Assembly: GCA_900095095.1 (NCBI GenBank)
Contig: FMBT01000342.1
Coordinates: 186,001-250,000 of the forward strand
DNA length: 64,000 nucleotides
Reading direction: 5' to 3'
Source: Fragilariopsis cylindrus CCMP1102
Taxonomy: Eukaryota > Bacillariophyta > Bacillariophyceae > Bacillariales > Bacillariaceae
The notes under the pieces were generated by a model that was given only the letters and a program-made list of their open reading frames with translations, was not told where the DNA came from and searched no databases. The position numbers were made by a program, and so were the translations under genes. Of the stretch, positions 51,386-62,350 are shown piece by piece. Position 1 is the first letter of the stretch, and each line of letters opens with the position of its first letter.

Positions 51386-52289
51386 AATACTGTAGGAACG
51401 GAATGAAAAAAGCAATAACAGCATGGATAAAAATATATACACGAACAAACAACAACAGCAACAGCAACAATTGCAACGGTGGGAACGTATGAACAGAAGC
51501 ATCACGTCACGGAACTATCTACTGTAATGCAATACCATATTTATCAATCTTGGATTTAATACTCAGCAGAAGGTATTGTACTGTAGTAGTAATTGGAAAC
51601 AACGGAATATGAATATAGCAACAAACGAAGGAAAAAAAAGTTGATTAGATACAAGTGATTGGTCTTTTTTTCTACTACTCATTAATTTAATAACAGCAAC
51701 AGCAACAGCAACATCATAAACTAGTAGCTGAATTACTTTTAAGACATTTTTGAAATAGTTTTGCTTTGAATTGATTGAAAAGCGAATGAATGAAATACTC
51801 CGTCACCAAAAATAATCTGCTGTAATGATGATTGAGATAAAATAGTATATGACCATTGGTTCAAGAGAGAGAGATGGAGAGATGGAGAGAGTCGGAATAT
51901 ACCGAAGGACTGTTGTTAGTAACAACAATATTGTTGTTGTTTGTTATTGTTTATTATATTGTTACGCTCGTTATAAGACTGTGATTGTCATTCATCACTT
52001 TATTTGATACAAAACTTGAAAACAAAGGGAGGGTATAAGGATCAATGCATCTGGAGGAATAATACGTATCGTACACTATGTAATTATAGTTCTTTCTCCA
52101 TGTACTACACGATGTTCGACTACTACTTTGAGTCAAATGCTTCTTTTTGGTATATTTCATTGGATTTAAGTTTAATTTAATTCAATTTATTTCATTCTAT
52201 TTTATGTTCTGTATTTCCATTCTTTTCATCTCATTTTATGTTATTTCATTTCTATTCTTTTGGCTAGATAAATAGAAAAGACACTTTAT
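51386..52289. other. Intergenic between convergent genes
   Basis: Holds the 3' flanks of the LRR and LPMO-like genes, CAACAG-type repeats near 51450 and 51691, and a GAGAGATGGAGAGATGGAGA tract at about 51867. I see no gene. Confidence 0.6.
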
Positions 52290-53540
52290 TTATGCTTCAA
52301 TGGTCACAATAGTGCACTGAGTCCAGACCTGTGGCGATTGTTCAGAATCCCAGCGCCAAGAAAGAACATAATCGCCTTCCATTCCTTTTGGAACCTGGAT
52401 TGTGTCAACAATTTCAAAAGGGGTATAATGCACATCTGTTCTAGCCGACAATGGTTCCATAATGTCAAATAAGGCAGGGGAGGTTGAACTATTAGAATTA
52501 ATCTCAGGTCCACCCCAAAAACCAGCCTTCGATATTTCGTTTTCAAACATGGGTCCATCACAATTTGAATCAGGAGTAGCGAAATCACCACATGCAGGTA
52601 GACCTATTTGAGTCCAAGTCGACCCTTTTGGTAGAACACCATTCGTGTTGGCATCACTCACACGTACTGGAGTGAAAGGAATGATTTGTGTTTCATTGTC
52701 ATTATCGTTTTTATAAACGAACCAAGATTCGTCCCCAACAAAGTCTAAAGCTGTGAAGCATCCTTCGTCTAAAGTATCGTTCAAAAGAAACTCAATTGGA
52801 CACACGCGCCACTGAAATCCGCCACCATGATTGGCTGACAATGAGTACGATACATTTTGCACAGACCCTGCTTTCCATCTAGGATTATCATTGGTAGTAT
52901 ATTGTTCTCCCTGTGCTTCTTGCATCCGATGGTTAATCTCTTCCAACAACACAACATCTCCATGTGTACCGGCAGGGATAGTCAAATTTGCCGGTGGCAT
53001 ATAAGAATTTACTGCTCCTCCCGTTCCGTTCATGAGATTTTCGTATCCATCGCCGGGACCGGCAATGTAATCTTGAGCCGAATTGTATTGCCATCCACCC
53101 AAAATACCGCAGGAATTTACCACTGGGGCGTGTCCCGGTGCCAACCAAGGATTTCTCTTTAGGGGAGTGTTAGTTACAGATGCAAAGTCTTTTGGTGACA
53201 CTTTTGCTGCACCTCGAAGCATACTTTGTGTACTACTGTTATCAGCCGTTTGAACAGCAGACCACCATTTATCTGACATGTAAGTTAGCTGTTCTACATC
53301 CTTGAGAGTTGGTTCAAATTGTTCTTCGCAACATGGTGTATTTCCGCCATTAGGACTACCATTTCCACAATTTTGTCCAGTCGCAACAGGGCATCCAATT
53401 TGTGATCCTTGATTGAACCACATGTATCGCCAACCACCTAGATCCGTCGTAATTTTGGGTACTTTTGGTTGTGTGATTGTACCATGTGCATTCGTTGTTG
53501 AAGCGTATGCAAGAAGGAGAGTTGCTGTAGAGAATTTCAT
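52290..53540 (-). CDS. Secreted LPMO-like (histidine-brace) protein
   Basis: A single exon encodes 416 residues. The signal peptide ends TTNA, and cleavage leaves His as residue 1 (HGTITQPKVP), the rule for copper lytic polysaccharide monooxygenases. The second brace His is offered by SANHGGGFQWRVCP. At the end, YVLSWRWDSEQSPQVWTQC matches the closing strand of chitin-active families. There are about ten Cys residues, including GCPVATGQNCGNG and TPCCEEQF, for disulfides. The family is close to chitin-binding/LPMO types such as AA15, but I cannot fix the AA number. Likely action is oxidative cleavage of chitin or a similar glycan outside the cell, plausible for a diatom that makes or feeds on chitin. 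The binding surface is unknown. Confidence 0.83.
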   Translation of the reverse strand: MKFSTATLLLAYASTTNAHGTITQPKVPKITTDLGGWRYMWFNQGSQIGCPVATGQNCGNGSPNGGNTPCCEEQFEPTLKDVEQLTYMSDKWWSAVQTADNSSTQSMLRGAAKVSPKDFASVTNTPLKRNPWLAPGHAPVVNSCGILGGWQYNSAQDYIAGPGDGYENLMNGTGGAVNSYMPPANLTIPAGTHGDVVLLEEINHRMQEAQGEQYTTNDNPRWKAGSVQNVSYSLSANHGGGFQWRVCPIEFLLNDTLDEGCFTALDFVGDESWFVYKNDNDNETQIIPFTPVRVSDANTNGVLPKGSTWTQIGLPACGDFATPDSNCDGPMFENEISKAGFWGGPEINSNSSTSPALFDIMEPLSARTDVHYTPFEIVDTIQVPKGMEGDYVLSWRWDSEQSPQVWTQCTIVTIEA

Positions 53541-54063
53541 ATTTATATGTTTTGTTTTGTTTGTTTTAAGTTTTATTGTTTTATTGTTTGATTTGCTGTT
53601 TTGTCTTTTTTATTTTATGTGATTACGATTTCCTTCGTCGTCGTCTGAAAAAGTGAAATGGACTTATCGTTATGCGCCATTCAATGAATGCATAGCGGCG
53701 CCATTCAATGAATGCATAGTGGCGCCATTCAATGATAGCGCCTATCTCCTCCCCCCCCCGTACAATTATTCTACAATAACGTATTCACGACGACGTAACG
53801 CGCCATGAACGAAAAGGCCTAAGTAATTACGTACGACAGAAAAATTTGCATGATGAGAATTTCGCGCGCTATTTGTGCACGCGCTATATACATTCTTATA
53901 ATTTCTCATTCCTCATTCCTTATTCCTCATCCTCAACACACTCACAACTCGAATCACATTGAACATACATACCTGCACTGCTCGAAACAAAAAGAGACCT
54001 ATCAAAACCAACTGGTACAAGTACAAGATATCGTCGTATCATCACCTCTCTCCACTACTCACG
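53541..54063. promoter_or_regulatory. Bidirectional region, LPMO-like / beta6-like
   Basis: This 523-bp gap separates two start codons of divergent genes. It contains three copies of a 24-bp unit and, at 53851-53870, a GCGCGC-containing stretch. Promoter use is inferred from position. Confidence 0.5.
53674..53741. repeat. 24-bp direct repeat, nearly three copies
   Basis: GCGCCATTCAATGAATGCAT starts at 53674, 53698 and 53722; the third copy is cut short. It lies in the divergent promoter region, about 135 bases upstream of the LPMO-like start. Confidence 0.93.
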
Positions 54064-54927
54064 ATGATTCAACGCAAGCAAAACAACGTGTTACTTTTCT
54101 CGGTGGTTGCTCTTTCATGGTTTCAGTTGGTAACAAGTAGTTCGTTCGAGCCATATCAGTTAAACGGTGGTCTCGTCAGTGCAGTTGCCGGTCGAAATTT
54201 CGCTATCATCGCCTCAGATACTCGTATGATCGGAGAAGGAGGATACGTCCTAGAATCACGTAATCATCTTTCCAGTCGATTGTGGTCGGTAGACGATGAT
54301 ATGCTGATGGTCGAAATTGAAGATTCTTTACGCTCTACTCCAGACTCTGTAGAAGTGAGAGAAATCGACCTCGAGGATACCACATCACTAGCGTCTGCAC
54401 CGATCTTGATTGGCTCGTCCGGATGTAGTACTGATTGCTGCCAGCTTCAAAGAAATATTCGTGCCGATTTTCGTGCTGCTTCGTATTTTGGTCATATATC
54501 CCGATCTAATCCCGATATGGTAGCTAACATGCTTAGCTCAACTCTGTATGAACGACGCGGATTTCCCTACTATGCATTTTGCGTTGTAGCGGGTCTAGAC
54601 CAAACGACAAAGAGTAACGGTAATTATTGTGGTAAGGTGTACGTTTACGATGCCATTGGATCATATGAAAGAGTTGCGGTTGCTGCTACGGGGACTGGGC
54701 GTGAACTTTTACAACCCATACTAGATCGTATGTTCGAGGCGACGTCGTCGAAGGACCAGGTGGACGGAACAGCTAATGAAGCCGTCGAAATACTTTGTAA
54801 AGCATACCGTTCTGTATCGGAGCGTGAAATTGGTGTTGGGGATAAGCTTGTGATACATGTTTCCGAGATAAATTCCAACGATGAAGTTAGTCGCCGTGTT
54901 TTTGTGGTCCCCCTGAAACAACATTGA
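54064..54927 (+). CDS. PSMB1: Proteasome beta6-like (PSMB1) protein with a signal-peptide-like N-terminus
   Basis: 287 residues from the ATG at 54064. From FEPYQLNGGLVSAVAGRNFA and IIASDTRM onward the fold matches the 20S proteasome subunit beta6. MLSSTLYERRGFPYYAFCVV, YDAIGSYERVA and LLQPILDRMF are classic. Beta6 has no catalytic Thr, and none is seen. The N-terminus is odd: a basic start, VLLFSVVALSWFQLV, then TSSS before Phe. This reads as a signal peptide with Phe at the +1 position, the diatom plastid-import rule. An acidic insert of about 30 residues follows SRLWSV. It could be a periplastidial paralogue or the normal subunit with an unusual leader. The usual copy is not in this window. 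Confidence 0.85.
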   Translation: MIQRKQNNVLLFSVVALSWFQLVTSSSFEPYQLNGGLVSAVAGRNFAIIASDTRMIGEGGYVLESRNHLSSRLWSVDDDMLMVEIEDSLRSTPDSVEVREIDLEDTTSLASAPILIGSSGCSTDCCQLQRNIRADFRAASYFGHISRSNPDMVANMLSSTLYERRGFPYYAFCVVAGLDQTTKSNGNYCGKVYVYDAIGSYERVAVAATGTGRELLQPILDRMFEATSSKDQVDGTANEAVEILCKAYRSVSEREIGVGDKLVIHVSEINSNDEVSRRVFVVPLKQH

Positions 54928-55620
54928 ATAATGAAATCAACTTTTTTATAAAGACATGATGAAGAAGGATTTTTGTTGCCATTGCGAATTTGTTCTTGCT
55001 ATCATGGACAATACCATTATGCTAAATCGACTTAACTAACGTATGTATTGATATCCAGTACGATTATTCATAACTCATCGATCGAAGAAATATAGTCGCA
55101 ACAAGAAGCAGTAAGCTTATATAGTCGGAACAGAAACGAAACGATCTTTATCCACTTCAGCTCTGAGACCTGATCAAAAGGGAATCAGGGAATCACAGGT
55201 GTTATAATCAAAGAACTAATCGATTGCTGCTGTTGGAAATAGCTCAAAAGAACAACCCCAGTTACTAGAGGAAAGCACTGTGCGAGCAAATTTATTAAAA
55301 GTATTCTACCGATACAACGCGGCTATTCATGATTCAATTTTGACAATAAGAAATATCTTTACAATTTGCACGATGGAGCTGCAGCATACTTAGTAAAGCA
55401 TCGAGGAATTGACATGCGCACCAAATCTAACTTACTACTAAAAAAAATCTCATGACCGGCATTGATTGGACCTGCCTTTCATCATATAATATTGGTACTC
55501 GTAATATAGGACCAGGCACAATACTTCTATTTTCTTGTAAAAAGACAAATTATTTAATTTATCATTGAGGTATTGACTTGGAACCTTTTTTCTTCTTCTT
55601 AGTATGTGTCTATTCTCTTC
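54928..55620. other. Intergenic between convergent genes
   Basis: AT-rich spacer after the beta6-like gene and before the 3' end of the RING gene. Nothing recognisable. Confidence 0.6.
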
Positions 55621-58265
55621 CTAATCCACTCTACTAATGTCATCGTCGAATAAAAAATGATGGGGCCGGGCGAATGCGGGAATAAAAAGTATCTCATCAT
55701 CATCATCAACTAGGCTATGAAAGGAGGAATTTTCTTCATCGAAACTGGTGGATTCAACGATGGCTATGTTTTCCCTTCTATTTTGGACATCGTTTAATAG
55801 ATCTGGGTCTAGGAACGACATACGCGGTGGTTCGTTGTCACGGCTAGGGTAATTCTCGCTATTGTTTCTGTTATCTTCGCATAATAAGCCGTATTGGTCT
55901 TCAGTGGTTTCGTCAGAATCTGAAGATCCCATGTCACCGACGAAACCAACATAATGAGCATTCACTGACTCCCGGTAATTTGAATGGTGGTCGATATCGC
56001 TTTCACTACTATCGTCGTCGTTATCACTGACGTAAATATGTCTATCTTCTTCGTCGTCACTGGGGACATGATTGACTCGTGACGGATTTCTTGTATTTCT
56101 TCTACCATCGTCATCTTCTTCACTTGTGATATCGTTTACATCATAATCAAGTCCACTATAAAGGAAAATTGAACTGCTTGCTGAAGAATATGAAGACGAG
56201 CTTGATGAATCCTCTGAGGATGAACTTGATGATAAAGAGTGGAGAGAGTGGAATAACGATTCGTTGAAGATCCCCAAATTTTCGGTAGAAAAGTCATCGT
56301 TCCCGTCGTTTGCTATTCGCGATTCTCTACCGGAAGAAAGAGATGGGAGGGTTGATCGACATTGAGGACACGATGAATGCGAACTTAACCATTTTGCCAA
56401 ACAATTAAAATGTATTGGCTTTCCACAACAAAGTGTACTGATATTTGGATTATCGTCTAAACAAATTAAGCAGACGCTTTCCGCTGCATTTTCTCGAGCC
56501 AGCCGTACTAAACGAGCATCGGTTTCTTCCGCTGATAAAGCTGCTTTTTTTTCAACAAGAAGACCAAAATCTGTAACGGCACAAGCTATACGATCCAGGA
56601 GGAAACCAGCAAGAGGATCAAGACCTTCCGTAGATTGAACAATCACAGCTGTTTTGGATTCGTCAAACACCCCTGAGGTACGAGGCATAAGTTATGCCTC
56701 GCTAATTCTATAACGGAGTAGAACCTTGATTTTTCTTCTTGATTTGAATAGAAGGTGATACAGAAGGGTAATCCTATCCGACGAAGTGTCCAATTTAGGA
56801 GTATTCTCGCGAGGCACTGATTTCCAGCTTCGAACGGAGCAATATCTAAAATACCCAAGATTACAGCGGCGGCAAAGCTTGCAATATTGCTCGGTTTTTC
56901 CTTGATTTGTGGTAGCCAGTGTTGTTCCATAGAACTACAAAAACTTTCCATTCGTTCTGGTATTTGCTCTGATGGGCAATGTATTGATTTCTCCGACCGA
57001 AAACTACCCGCTTCCTTTTGCAAACCATCACCCATTAGCCAAGCATGCCAACGCAAAAGCAATTCAGAAGAAAGCGGCTCATCTTTGCATAGTAATGCAT
57101 ATTCTAGCGTCTCCTTGTTTTGAGTCCAGCTTTGATGTTCACTGCAAGTTGCGTTGCTAGTTATAGTCCCCGTACCATCATATGTATCGGCGTATGATGA
57201 ATCCTCTGTCATATCGGATAACGACGTAAATTGGTTCTCCCTCTGCATTTGATCGAATTCGTTTAGTGCGGAAGTGTAATTTTGAAAGTATTTTAGTGAC
57301 CCCATCATTAAAGAAAATGACGAAGGCGACAAAAGTGATATCTTCTCTTTTCTACTCTGAAGCGTCATTATAGCCGAATGCTGTTCAATGAAGTTTGTTA
57401 CTTCGATGACATTTTCTTCCGTTTCAGTCCTCTGCATTGATTGTTGATAAAATGCTTCAATGGTTAGTTTCTTTGACGATATCAAACTAGCTATTCTTCC
57501 GACTGGCAAACAGAACTCCTCTGTGGCAATATACTGTTTTGTTTCAGATGTCTGATTCTCTGTCTCTTCGTCGTTACAATTTGTATCTGATCGCTTCTTG
57601 TACAGTATTTCATATTGTGTGACGTATATGTGGGGGAAATATTGGTTTGCTGTTTTCATAGCCACATATGTCTCTTTTATCCTTTTCTTGGCGTCCTTAT
57701 TCTCATTGTCCTCAAATTCGTCGTTATTGTTATCGTTATCGTTATCGTTATCGTTGTCCACGTCATCGCCGTCTCTGTCGTTACTTGTACTACTTGTAGC
57801 CAAAGAGATGGACGGCGACGCATCATACGCAGATAACGAAAATCTAACAACGAACGCAGATATGGAAATAATACATTCCGGCAGGTGATCATTATGCTTC
57901 GTTCCTAAAATATTCCCTGCACAAGAATGTGTACCATCGGATAACGACTTAAGAGTAATCTTGTCTTGGAAATTACAAATTCTAACCACGAACGGTCCCA
58001 CGGCTTTATTACCTTTGACCGAATCAAGTTCCACCTTGTTATTACAATCATTAATAGCACCATGCACCATATCTTGGATAGCATCGGACGTGAGTTCAAT
58101 ATCGAAGTATTCTTGATCTTCTTCGTTCTCATCCTCGTGCTCTTCATTTTCTTTGCGATTTCGATCACTACTCGATGGGTCTCGCTGTATTTTATTCATT
58201 GAGGAGGAGGAGGAACGAGACGAGGAATCCATCCAAATAGATCGTTTCGCTCGAAACAAGGTCAT
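55621..58265 (-). CDS. Degenerate Fic-like domain fused to a RING finger, one frame change
   Basis: An ORF from 58265 ends at 56643; a second from 56688 overlaps it one base out of phase. One extra base in the C4 run at 56670-56673 joins them into 881 residues. The first part, residues about 395-560, is a Fic fold: LLRWHAWLMG with EAGSFRS, a Fic-type helix pair. Where the active loop should read HPFxxGNGR it has APFEAGNQC at 476-484, so the catalytic His and the Gly-Arg are missing. The second part has the RING VCLICLDDN...LCCGKPIHFNC...CPQC, then a Ser/Asp-rich tail. The RING would bind an E2 enzyme. A pseudo-Fic arm could recruit substrate. No known protein has this pair, as far as I recall. 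Confidence 0.72.
56682..56700. repeat. Perfect 9-bp inverted repeat with one-base loop
   Basis: GAGGCATAA and TTATGCCTC pair around a single G, just upstream of the frame change in the Fic-like/RING gene. Confidence 0.9.
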
Positions 58266-58754
58266 ATTAAATTCAATGAAAACCGTTTTGTTACTTTACT
58301 CATCGCCTTCCACAATTGTTAGTGTTATTTCCATAGCTCTCTCTCTCTCTCTCTCCCTCTCTCTCTCTCTCTACTTCGATGATAGTCGTGTCACAACAAA
58401 AAATCTGTAATTGATCTTGATATTTATTATTTATTTTTGATACTGTAATAGCTAGTGCGATTGCTTGACATTTCCGCGCTCGATGCTTCTTTGGTTATAA
58501 TTATCTCAAATTATGGGCTATGTAGAATTATACATATTTTGTACTGGATACTACTTTTGAGTGAAGCTACTACTCCAACTGTCATAATTATTTGTTTTTT
58601 TGTTTGCAATTTTTCATTAACGACAGCTATAACAACGCTAACTTACGAAAGACGAAGACGACGATTCATCACATCCACGGAACTTGTAGCCCCTTTATCT
58701 AAAAGCACCGATTGAGACTGAAGACAGCGATAGACAAAGTACATAGTATACAAG
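58266..58754. other. Divergent intergenic region
   Basis: Upstream region of the Fic-like/RING gene (-) and YIPF6 (+). A CT dinucleotide tract lies at 58337-58372. I see no gene. Confidence 0.55.
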
Positions 58755-59677
58755 ATGGCGCAGCAATTACCACCACAGCAGGCAGGAGGACCACAATGGG
58801 CCAACCCGAATGTCTCTCAACAACAACAACCACAGCAGCAGCAGCAGCAACAACAACAGCAACAACAATACATACCAGCAGCAACAATCCAACAGAACGC
58901 ACAAGATGAATTCTTCGCTCCTCTATCAACATTAGATGAACCCGTGATGGAAACCATAATGCGTGATGTTCGATCGGTTGGGAGTAAACTTAAAGTCGTC
59001 CTTTTACCCATGGAACGTTCGGTACGTCAATTTAATTTTCATTTCAATTTACGGCGATGATTTTCATTCAACACTTTAGTTTCATTCTGTTCTTTAAAGT
59101 AGGTTTTACTGATACTATTCCAATGTTTTAAAAAAAAAATTCTCTTACATTCTAGCTTCCGTACGGTGGATATTCAGGAGTTTCTCAATCGGAAAGTATT
59201 GACTTAACGGAACGTGATAAACAAATTATTGAAAGTCTTCGAGATTGGGACCTGTGGGGGCCCTTAGTTGTATGTTTAGCATTAGCCGTACTGTTATCAA
59301 TCAAGGCACCGGTCGGACAAGCTAGTTTGGTATTTGCTGCTGTTTTTTGTGCAGTCTGGCTTGGATCTGCAGTAGTAACAGTCAATGCTCAACTATTAGG
59401 TGGAACAATTTCATTCTTCCAATCTGTTTGCGTATTGGGATATTGTGTCTTTCCTATGACCTTAGCAGCTGTTGTTGTTGATCTATTTAAAATGCTCCCA
59501 TTGGGAGCCTTTTCTGCGTTGGTAGAGGTAGCAGTTCTACTCGTTGCCTTTTTGTGGTCAACTAGGGCATCAGCGGTCTTTATTGGACAATATATTATTC
59601 CATCAAGACGAATCCTTGCTGTGTTCCCCGTGTTGTTTTTCTACACTTTTTTGGCGTGGTTAATTTTCCTATTTTAA
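58755..59677 (+). CDS. YIPF6: YIPF6/Yip1-family Golgi membrane protein
   Basis: Two exons, 58755-59021 and 59156-59677, are joined by a GTACGT...TCTAG intron and give 262 residues. The N-terminal cytosolic part has a polyGln run and then LDEPVMETIMRDVRSVG, the YIPF6 signature. The second exon starts LPYGGYS and has LRDWDLWGPLVVCLALAVLL, the first of five membrane helices. FFQSVCVLGYCVFPMTLA forms a later pair. Yip1-family proteins sit in the ER-Golgi system, bind Rab GTPases and support vesicle budding. The size and order fit YIPF6 rather than YIPF1-5. Start choice is clear: ATG in a good context, with no earlier in-frame ATG nearby. Confidence 0.94.
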
Positions 59678-60201
59678 AAGGGGGCGAACAATACTATCAG
59701 TGTAATGAAGAAAATAAATAGATGAAGTATACCCCATTAATATTCTAGTAGTCATATCAGTTTTACGATATACATCGAATACTTTTCCAAAAAGATATAT
59801 CTTTCGCCTTCTACACTTTTGGTCCAAGATTTGAGTCACTCCTTGCGGTGCTAGTTTATCTTTCCAAAAACTGGACAAGTATCTATGGATACGTAGTAAC
59901 AGTAATATCAATGTGAACAGCTTATCTCATCTCATCGCATCTCATTTCATCAAACACAACACAACACAAAAGAGAACCAATCAGATTTAAATAGAATAAC
60001 AGCAAAATCTAACAGTGACTTCTGAATAAATTAAAGGTTTAAACATGATATTGTGTACTGTGATTCTATGACTTCGTTCTAAAGAAAGTAATATTTACCT
60101 TCCACAGCTTATGTGGCAAATAATTTCTTTTAGATACTGTTAATGTTGTTACAAAGTTAGCTGGATAGATATTAGACATCACTAATGTTATGCTCATTTA
60201 C
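59678..60201. other. Intergenic between convergent genes
   Basis: AT-rich spacer; holds a short CATCTCAT repeat near 59927. I see no gene. Confidence 0.6.
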
Positions 60202-61212
60202 TCAAGGAGAAGATTTTCCTAACACAAGTGCCAATATTGCCATACGAACATACATCCCATTTTCCATTTGTCGAAAATATGCCGCCCTTGGATCAGCATC
60301 TACCTCTGTCGCAATTTCATCGACCCTTGGCAATGGATGTAAAACGATCATATTTTTTGGTACCTTATCCATCAAAGCATTATCTACTACATAACAACCC
60401 TTGACACTTTCATATGCCTCTTCAGTTTCAAAGCGTTCTTTTTGAATCCTTGTTACGTACAAAATCTGAGCATCCTGGCAGGCTTTGGTTGCATCCTCAA
60501 AAATTTCATATTGTACACCATTATTCTTACAATATTCAAGAATTGAGTCTGGTATTGATAAAATTTGAGGAGAACAAAATCTCAAGATTAATTTAGATTG
60601 TGGACGTAATTGTGATAGTAATTTTGCCAAAGAATGAACCGTTCTTCCATGTTTGAGATCACCCAAGAAAACTACAATCTTAGGATCGTCTTTAAGTTCA
60701 TCCCATATAGTAAATGAATCTAATAATGCCTGTGTGGGATGCTCGCCTATTCCATCACCAGCATTTAATACGGGCTTAGTCGTTGACAGTACTACTTTTG
60801 GCACGGAACCAGTTTCGGGATGTCTCAATACAATAGCATCGACGTAACATTCCAAGCATTTGATCGTATCTTCCAATGATTCCTTCTTCTTTGCTGCACT
60901 TGAATTCCCTTGACCATCAACATGTATAAATGTCCCACCAAGTCGACTCATCGCAGCTTGGAAACTGCACGAGGTTCGAGTCGAGGCTTCGTAAAATATT
61001 GTAGCAAGTACCTTATGTTTCAATCGATCATCTCCACCCTCCGATCGTACAATATCTCTCATTTGTTGAGAGATAGTAACAAGTAATTCAAAGCCCTTAG
61101 GAGTAATTTGTGCAACGGATACTAGAGATTGACCCTTCCAACTGACAGGATCTTCGGTCAGGATTGCTAATGGCTTTTTCTCGTTGCGTTCAGTGGTTGA
61201 CGACATCATCAT
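60202..61212 (-). CDS. Aspartate carbamoyltransferase
   Basis: A single exon encodes 336 residues, the normal catalytic-chain length. STRTS (77-81) is the carbamoyl phosphate site, HPTQALLD the loop that binds both substrates, and HPLPRVDEI and DPRAAYFRQ the aspartate site. It makes carbamoyl-aspartate, the second step of pyrimidine synthesis. There is no plastid or mitochondrial leader: the protein starts MMMSSTTERNEKK, so it is likely cytosolic. It is a separate gene rather than part of a CAD fusion. No regulatory chain gene is nearby. I left the gene symbol blank because naming differs among algae. Confidence 0.96.
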   Translation of the reverse strand: MMMSSTTERNEKKPLAILTEDPVSWKGQSLVSVAQITPKGFELLVTISQQMRDIVRSEGGDDRLKHKVLATIFYEASTRTSCSFQAAMSRLGGTFIHVDGQGNSSAAKKKESLEDTIKCLECYVDAIVLRHPETGSVPKVVLSTTKPVLNAGDGIGEHPTQALLDSFTIWDELKDDPKIVVFLGDLKHGRTVHSLAKLLSQLRPQSKLILRFCSPQILSIPDSILEYCKNNGVQYEIFEDATKACQDAQILYVTRIQKERFETEEAYESVKGCYVVDNALMDKVPKNMIVLHPLPRVDEIATEVDADPRAAYFRQMENGMYVRMAILALVLGKSSP

Positions 61213-61732
61213 TAATTTGCTTGGTTGGGAGTTGAATTTATATTTTATTTATTATTATATTGTAACAATTATTTATTTGTTGACGATGATCGATGTTTTA
61301 AATAAAACAAATCTAATAGAATGATCCCAATGCATTTATTATTATTTATCAGCATTATTTATTCGAAATTCAATTTGTTGGAGGAGCTTCTTCGATTCCG
61401 ATCTTGGCGCGCACTAATATGCCCGTCCATCATGGTTCCGTGCATGAAGAGCGAATGAATCAAGTATTTTTTCAAACTTCGCTTCCCATTGATGTTGAAT
61501 GTGCGTAAAAAAAACCTGACACAACGACAACACAAACGACGGCATTATTTTATGTGTGTATAATGTATGTATGTATCAACGACAACCGTTGCGCCGACTA
61601 CTGTACGACTACGCGGACAAAGAAGACCGAAGGCAGAAATTGACGGTAGCTAACGTTACTACTGTATCTCATTATTTTTAAAATTGTTATTTGATTATTG
61701 TGTTACATCAGGCGTTTTAGAAAAGATTCAAG
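61213..61732. other. Divergent intergenic region
   Basis: Upstream region of ATCase (-) and the AT-hook repeat protein (+). It contains CTACTGTACGACTAC at about 61599. I see no gene. Confidence 0.55.
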
Positions 61733-62350
61733 ATGAGGGGTAGGCCACCAGAATCAAATTCCAAAGTTGGCCATGTTACGTGGGAGGAAGAATTCTCTTG
61801 CTTTGTTGGATCGTGTGGGTATTACTGGCATGGACATAAATTTGGTGGATGGCAAAATGAACCTCCCGATCCTAAACGAAAAAGACCTGCCTCTTCTGGA
61901 GGTGGTGTCAGTGGCAGTGGCAATGTTGATCGTGTTTGTCGTGGACGACGTCCAAACGGCAACGAACGCATTGGTGTCATCATTACATACAATATCGAAC
62001 ACGATTGTTATCAAACAGAAAAAGAATATTATTGGCATGGAACATATAACGGAGGATGGAAAAAGAATGCACCGGGTGTAGATTCTGATGTAGAATCCGA
62101 AGCAGAAAACGAAGAAGAAGAAAAGAAGGAGGATGATCCCAATGTTGATGTTGTTGTTGTTGATAGACCATCGAAAAAGAAAAGGAAAGGCAACACTAAG
62201 GGTAGACCACCTAGAAAACAAATTGCTGAAGAAACTATAGAATACGATGCCTATAAACTATGCTGGACGACGACAAGAGAAGGAGGACTTTACTGGCACG
62301 GCACATACAAAGGTGGTTGGAAAGATTATCCCCCCAAAACAACATATTAA
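61733..62350 (+). CDS. Three-unit AT-hook / YWHG repeat protein, novel
   Basis: A single exon encodes 205 residues. Three units of about 45 residues each start with an AT-hook-like core and end with YWHG. Unit one is RGRPPESNS...YYWHGHKFGGWQ, unit two RGRRPNGNE...YYWHGTYNGGWK and unit three KGRPPRKQI...LYWHGTYKGGWK. Between core and YWHG each unit has a Thr/Ile/Trp-rich stretch with one or two aromatics and a Cys. Acidic and Lys-rich linkers separate the units; the linker before unit three holds KKKRKG, a nuclear signal. AT-hooks bind the minor groove of AT-rich DNA, and YWHG-x3-GGW may be a new small fold. Likely a nuclear DNA-binding protein. I know no named family. Confidence 0.75.
   Translation: MRGRPPESNSKVGHVTWEEEFSCFVGSCGYYWHGHKFGGWQNEPPDPKRKRPASSGGGVSGSGNVDRVCRGRRPNGNERIGVIITYNIEHDCYQTEKEYYWHGTYNGGWKKNAPGVDSDVESEAENEEEEKKEDDPNVDVVVVDRPSKKKRKGNTKGRPPRKQIAEETIEYDAYKLCWTTTREGGLYWHGTYKGGWKDYPPKTTY

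Follow-up and report, generated by a model that had tools for sequence, protein, structure and literature searches.

A Fic domain lacking its catalytic histidine beside a RING finger in Fragilariopsis cylindrus: a candidate non-catalytic arm of a predicted ubiquitin ligase

The window analysed here is a stretch of 64,000 nucleotides from the diatom Fragilariopsis cylindrus CCMP1102 (contig FMBT01000342.1, positions 186,001 to 250,000). On its reverse strand, at 55621..58265, it carries a gene in which a Fic domain without the catalytic His is joined to a RING finger. We propose that the product is probably a RING-type ubiquitin ligase (E3) in which the Fic fold has ceased to transfer nucleotides and acts as a non-catalytic arm for binding, which may dock a substrate, a partner or a ligand. 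The His-less branch to which the gene belongs is part of a family centred on diatoms, most of whose Fic-RING proteins bear the His. In this branch the catalytic and target-docking residues, the flap segment, a [D/E]TT-rich tail and a terminal Cys-rich module would have been lost, with the Fic scaffold and the RING conserved and new tail motifs fixed.

The gene is read from two overlapping open reading frames (ORFs), and all its features lie on the reverse strand. ORF1 (56643..58265, 540 amino acids) starts with an ATG at 58265, stops at 56643 and encodes most of the Fic domain, preceded by an N-terminal domain and a helical lead; ORF2 (55621..56691, 356 amino acids) opens at 56691 in a different frame and encodes the C-terminal Fic helices, the RING finger and a Ser/acid-rich tail. 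In profile searches the Fic/DOC family PF02661 matched ORF1 at 38.9 bits (cut-off 24) and zf-RING_2 (PF13639) matched ORF2 at 31.8 bits (cut-off 27.3); among the ten alignment rows scanned, Fic was matched in nine, the tenth being ORF2 alone. The Fic core (56691..57113) is predicted to adopt a FICD-like fold, and by structure comparison FICD is its nearest relative of solved structure. This fold is kept in the models of P0001, the nearest relative of the window gene (96% identical), and of P0045; the VIA-align match lists of both models are filled by Fic chains, with the OB and RING folds barely probed. Ahead of the core lies a long helix (57210..57326), corresponding to helix 309-345 of the P0001 model and placed by a column tally. 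A preliminary description of this DNA had called the Fic fold recognisable, and both the profiles and the structure prediction bear this out.

The active loop, APFEAGNQCLAR (56805..56840), is degenerate: the His, the metal Asp, the first Gly and the first Arg are lost, and the GN pair and the second Arg are kept. The catalytic Fic motif is given as HPFx[D/E]GN[G/K]R in the cited part of PMC2686095, and APFEAGNQC of the window fails it at the His, the Asp/Glu, the Gly and the Arg. The Fic flap, which lies over the active site and docks the target according to the section used of PMC7842960, has its place at 56949..57014, where the window carries a KSIHCPSEQ stretch unlike the VRAGxTxF segment found in His-bearing relatives; the P0001 model has no strand at this position.

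When the Fic part of ORF1 was used as query, eight proteins were found at E <= 0.001 (among 219 candidates), all of them with a RING. Together with the window gene they form one clade, with support of 100/100 in a tree of 71 rows and an SH-aLRT of 100 in a tree of 148 rows (146 proteins, the window gene with its ORFs joined, and the protein of a paralogue on contig C462), on a stem that is long in both (0.85 and 0.89, respectively). Because the trees are unrooted, we infer rather than observe that the direction of change was loss and not gain. The catalytic His is present in 138 of the 148 rows, 136 of which have the full HxFxDGNGR; the ten rows without it are this clade of nine and P0040, which is counted apart from the 138 and included in the 139 other rows mentioned below. 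In all nine clade members A, V or L takes the place of the catalytic His, A or V that of the metal-ligand Asp and Gln that of the first loop Gly, and the flap segment VRAGxTxF is absent in six of them and swapped for an unlike stretch in three, the window included. Thus the losses of His and Gly noted in the preliminary description extend to the whole clade, whereas the Arg it also listed is kept in six members and replaced in just three, by Cys in the window and P0001 and by Trp in P0002; the losses are also larger than described, taking in the metal Asp and the flap. Twenty Fic columns are at least 90% conserved in the 138 His-bearing rows; ten of these are kept in 9/9 His-less rows and seven are lost in 9/9 (His, Asp and Gly of the loop, Phe of the flap, and, after the core, a Thr, a Gln and an Arg). 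Of 25 RING-region columns conserved to the same degree, 22 are kept throughout the clade and one is lost throughout. Mean pairwise identity, calculated from six of the nine rows, is 71.5% for Fic, 77.1% for the RING, 40.4% for the tail and 21.2% for the N-tail. Judged from alignments and models, the Fic fold is maintained in this clade while its catalytic residues are gone. The long helix may hold an (S/T)xxxE motif, with the Ser in 8/9 and the Glu in 9/9 His-less rows and the same Glu in 98 of the 139 others; its register relative to FICD is unfixed, and we do not claim an inhibitory motif.

The RING finger (CLIC...LCCGKPIHFNC...CPQCR, 56353..56472), delimited by PF13639 and column counts, has eight Cys/His residues in a noncanonical set. 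In a canonical RING the eight Cys/His zinc ligands follow a fixed order in which the fourth is His; the window has Lys at this position, so that the earlier statement that all metal ligands are present holds for the number of Cys/His and not for the canonical order. His stands at this position in only 3 of the 148 rows. Invariant in 148/148 are the adjacent Cys-Cys pair, the signature PNxxTLCCG, the Arg after the last RING Cys, which we take to be the linchpin Arg, and a Trp, presumably the E2-contact Trp of RING E3s. The best PDB sequence matches of the P0001 RING are the RING domains of RLIM and AMFR (32.6 and 27.1 bits); these have the canonical CxH at ligands 3-4, unlike the Cys-Cys-Gly-Lys of the window.

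The paralogue in the same genome (contig C462, locus L005, 3328-5520, forward strand) has an intact HPFRDGNGR loop, the same RING signature, a DTT-rich tail and two copies of the C-terminal Cys-rich module. No further full Fic-RING gene was found in the assembly beyond the window, its duplicate contig and C462 in searches with PF02661, the RING DNA pattern, P0048 and P0001, which work exon by exon and may miss some. A small Fic frame on contig C677 (locus L007, 1825-2184, forward strand) has an intact HPFVDGNGR loop and shows no RING within it. With the C462 protein as query at least 61 relatives were found, and the RING pattern was present in all 69 proteins then gathered; a family profile search gave at least 153 proteins, 120 of them readable. 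Both sizes are lower bounds, from scoring the 7991 and 7992 candidates, respectively, that shared most words.

Six members carry an organism label, and all are diatoms: Fragilariopsis kerguelensis (P0013), Pseudo-nitzschia heimii (P0142), Pseudo-nitzschia multistriata, Nitzschia inconspicua, Amphora coffeaeformis and Mayamaea pseudoterrestris. Fic and RING thus occur together in other diatoms, where the preliminary description had advised looking for the pair, and none of these six is His-less; the loss of the same residues, which it had named as a sign of a family, is found in the catalytic His, metal Asp and first Gly of the nine clade members. The His-bearing diatom proteins resemble the window gene in the order of Fic and RING, in PNxxTLCCG and, in those compared, in a similar N-terminal domain; they differ from the His-less clade in keeping the loop, the flap segment, the terminal Cys-rich module and mostly [D/E]TT tails. 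Relatives are already in the databases, annotated by single domains, under such names as 'fido (protein-threonine AMPylation protein)', 'filamentation induced by cAMP protein fic' (Nitzschia inconspicua) and 'RING-type domain-containing' (Pseudo-nitzschia multistriata). No Fic-RING protein is described in the titles or abstract openings of the open-access papers listed in searches aimed at the pair, a scope that leaves most subscription-journal papers outside. The supposed novelty of the architecture may stand within those papers and has to be qualified for the databases, where the pair belongs to a larger, mostly His-bearing family. A viral or prokaryotic origin of the pair was considered and rejected, the RING signature being present at 0 of 160 Fic loci in six frames (the best 80 of 113 viral-contig and the best 80 of 168 prokaryote loci); P0045 had no match in phage records. 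Elsewhere in the tree, P0040 (431 residues) keeps an intact RING next to a Fic loop that is partly deleted (KGFDEGNGE, without the HP), apparently a second, independent decay of the loop as far as its sequence indicates; its tail is only 60 residues long, without DTT or Cys module, and the record is short and may be a partial gene call.

Behind the RING, 131 of the 138 His-bearing proteins carry at least one [D/E]TT, with 515 occurrences in all where shuffled tails would give 76.1, and 130 carry the terminal Cys-rich module. In five of the eight lacking this module the tail may be cut off, being at most about 100 residues long; P0137 has a tail of 104, P0139 has a near variant that the pattern does not count, and P0142 is a full-length exception. 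The module, CxxCxNxxAxxCxNxxCGRCCVxxGxxxCxRH, recurs at His-bearing C-termini and is unexplained by the Pfam matches shown. In the His-less clade a single [D/E]TT is found in 3/9 and the Cys-rich module in 0/9; the window tail has one [D/E]TT and no module. Two other motifs mark the clade: FLYSGLDYD (56140..56166), with YSGL in 8/9 His-less rows and 0/139 others, and MSFLDPDLLNDVQN (55780..55821), with FLDP[ED][LV]L in 8/9 and 0/139, respectively.

The frames of ORF1 and ORF2 overlap at 56646..56691, and the frame break lies inside this overlap. The last eight residues of ORF1 are off-frame relative to the relatives, and the segment aligning with the C-terminal Fic helices is in ORF2, not in ORF1. 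Because the frame continues across the junction, without any insertion, in P0001 and seven further relatives, the sequences are best read as one gene with a one-base frame break near 56,660. The overlapping frames and an ATG near the start of ORF2 could suggest two genes, or exons joined over an intron, with the Fic-RING fusion an artefact of joint reading; this is highly improbable and was rejected, since ORF2 holds residues that align with the C-terminal Fic helices, since each of the eight near relatives, like the C462 paralogue, has both parts on a single chain, and since P0001 matches without an inserted stretch. The preliminary description had presented Fic and RING as one joined protein and had named separate genes in orthologues as evidence against it: both domains are on one chain in 8/8 near relatives, and it is the window copy itself that is split over two frames. 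Contig C317 (locus L006) duplicates window 52223-62127 with 0 substitutions and four single-base indels in 9,905 aligned bases, and has the same frame break and another inside the Fic domain (L006 71-1387 gave no Pfam match). Indels without substitutions resemble assembly error, which suggests that L006 is an uncollapsed duplicate in an assembly with indel errors. The two frames, the identical break in L006 and the His-bearing paralogue elsewhere in the genome would also fit a pseudogene or null allele, in which the protein would end at the break, within the C-terminal part of the Fic domain, and lack the RING; we consider this unlikely in view of the pattern of indels, of an ORF2 that is otherwise open and 96-98% identical to P0001, and of the eight relatives that read through. 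A programmed frameshift in the overlap would require a -1 shift, and no canonical slippery heptamer for it was seen there on inspection by eye. With one base breaking the frame in this assembly, the strain may or may not make the full-length protein.

Several points weigh against a non-catalytic arm on a working E3. Loop residues G6, N7 and R12 (the GN pair and the second Arg) are kept in 9/9 His-less rows, so that binding of a nucleotide or phosphate, or another chemistry, may persist. The RING lacks the canonical fourth-ligand His, and both the E3 activity and the binding arm are predictions from sequence. The gene's own frame is broken in both copies, the window and L006. The His-less clade is one phylogenetic event and its tail and Cys-module changes are not independent replicates, so the tail change is correlated and no proof of a link; the seven His-bearing proteins with no [D/E]TT at all speak against a strict need for it. 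Lastly, AvrB, which shares the Fido fold with the window gene and has none of the residues needed for the usual Fic activity (according to the part cited of PMC7842960), is described in the portion used of PMC10866546 as a rhamnosyltransferase, and other chemistry is thus possible without the AMPylation residues. On this model the His-less Fic would have changed its chemistry and would transfer another group, with its fold, GN turn and second Arg retained. The retained loop residues, the good conservation of the Fic core in the clade, the AvrB precedent and the best NCBIfam relation of P0001 and P0045 (XopAC/AvrAC at 23.1 and 35.5 bits, far below the cut-off of 450; AvrAC uses UTP in the same portion of PMC10866546) favour it; however, the metal Asp, the base His, the first Gly and the flap segment are all gone, the loop has no newly invariant Asp, Glu or His, and the [D/E]TT tail, a possible substrate, is not there, and we regard it as quite unlikely. 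A non-catalytic E3 arm, the idea of the preliminary description, thus gains from the missing catalytic residues and the conserved fold and RING, and is tempered by the kept GN and second Arg and by the noncanonical RING. Self-AMPylation is reported for HYPE on Thr and Ser and for FIC-1 on Thr (in the section cited of PMC8097203), and for this reason we tentatively propose the DTT tail as an on-board substrate: the Fic domain would nucleotidylate the [D/E]TT threonines, the mark would switch the adjacent RING, and the window clade would be a pseudoenzyme branch that dropped both catalysis and substrate and is now an unmarked, constitutive or partner-regulating E3. This extension is doubtful.

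Unlike the window gene, FICD/HYPE, the metazoan AMPylator/deAMPylator of BiP, has an intact HPFIDGNGR loop. It carries TPR repeats and, to our knowledge, no RING; we know of none in AvrB either. The nearest precedent for a binding arm is BepC of Bartonella, whose Fic is argued, in the part used of PMC7842960, to act without catalysis as a binding module; the same text gives it a loop with the His kept (HxFxKGNGRxxR) and a FIC-OB-BID layout in a bacterial effector, unlike the window. If our reading is true, the His-less branch would be a eukaryotic case of this role. A Fic transferase and a ubiquitin ligase finger in one chain, retained throughout a large family centred on diatoms, would, if true, place two protein-modifying chemistries in one eukaryotic protein. 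On the His-less branch the catalytic residues are missing together with the flap segment, the Cys module and, for the most part, the DTT tail, and the Fic scaffold and RING are retained; since the same genome also holds a His-bearing paralogue, the link can be tested.

Three neighbouring frames have no evident link to the Fic-RING gene: a proteasome-subunit-like frame (53902-54927, forward strand), a Yip1-domain frame (59156-59677, forward strand) and an aspartate/ornithine carbamoyltransferase frame (60202-61248, reverse strand).

The conserved N-terminal domain (57585..58106, reverse strand) is predicted to have an OB-like beta fold, from strands in the P0001 and P0045 models, and is weakly RPA70N-like. 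When the P0053 N-terminus was compared with the PDB, 12 of the 16 matches at E <= 10 were RPA70N entries, the best at a non-significant E of 0.14; the Rep-A_N profile hit one of 12 rows at E 0.15 and one of 55 rows at E 0.038, both below the cut-off, and profile A4 had no PDB match. These results are suggestive of an OB domain of the RPA70N type. Other N-terminal domains occur in His-bearing relatives, namely cold-shock (PF00313) in P0065 and P0067 and FHA (PF00498) in P0068.
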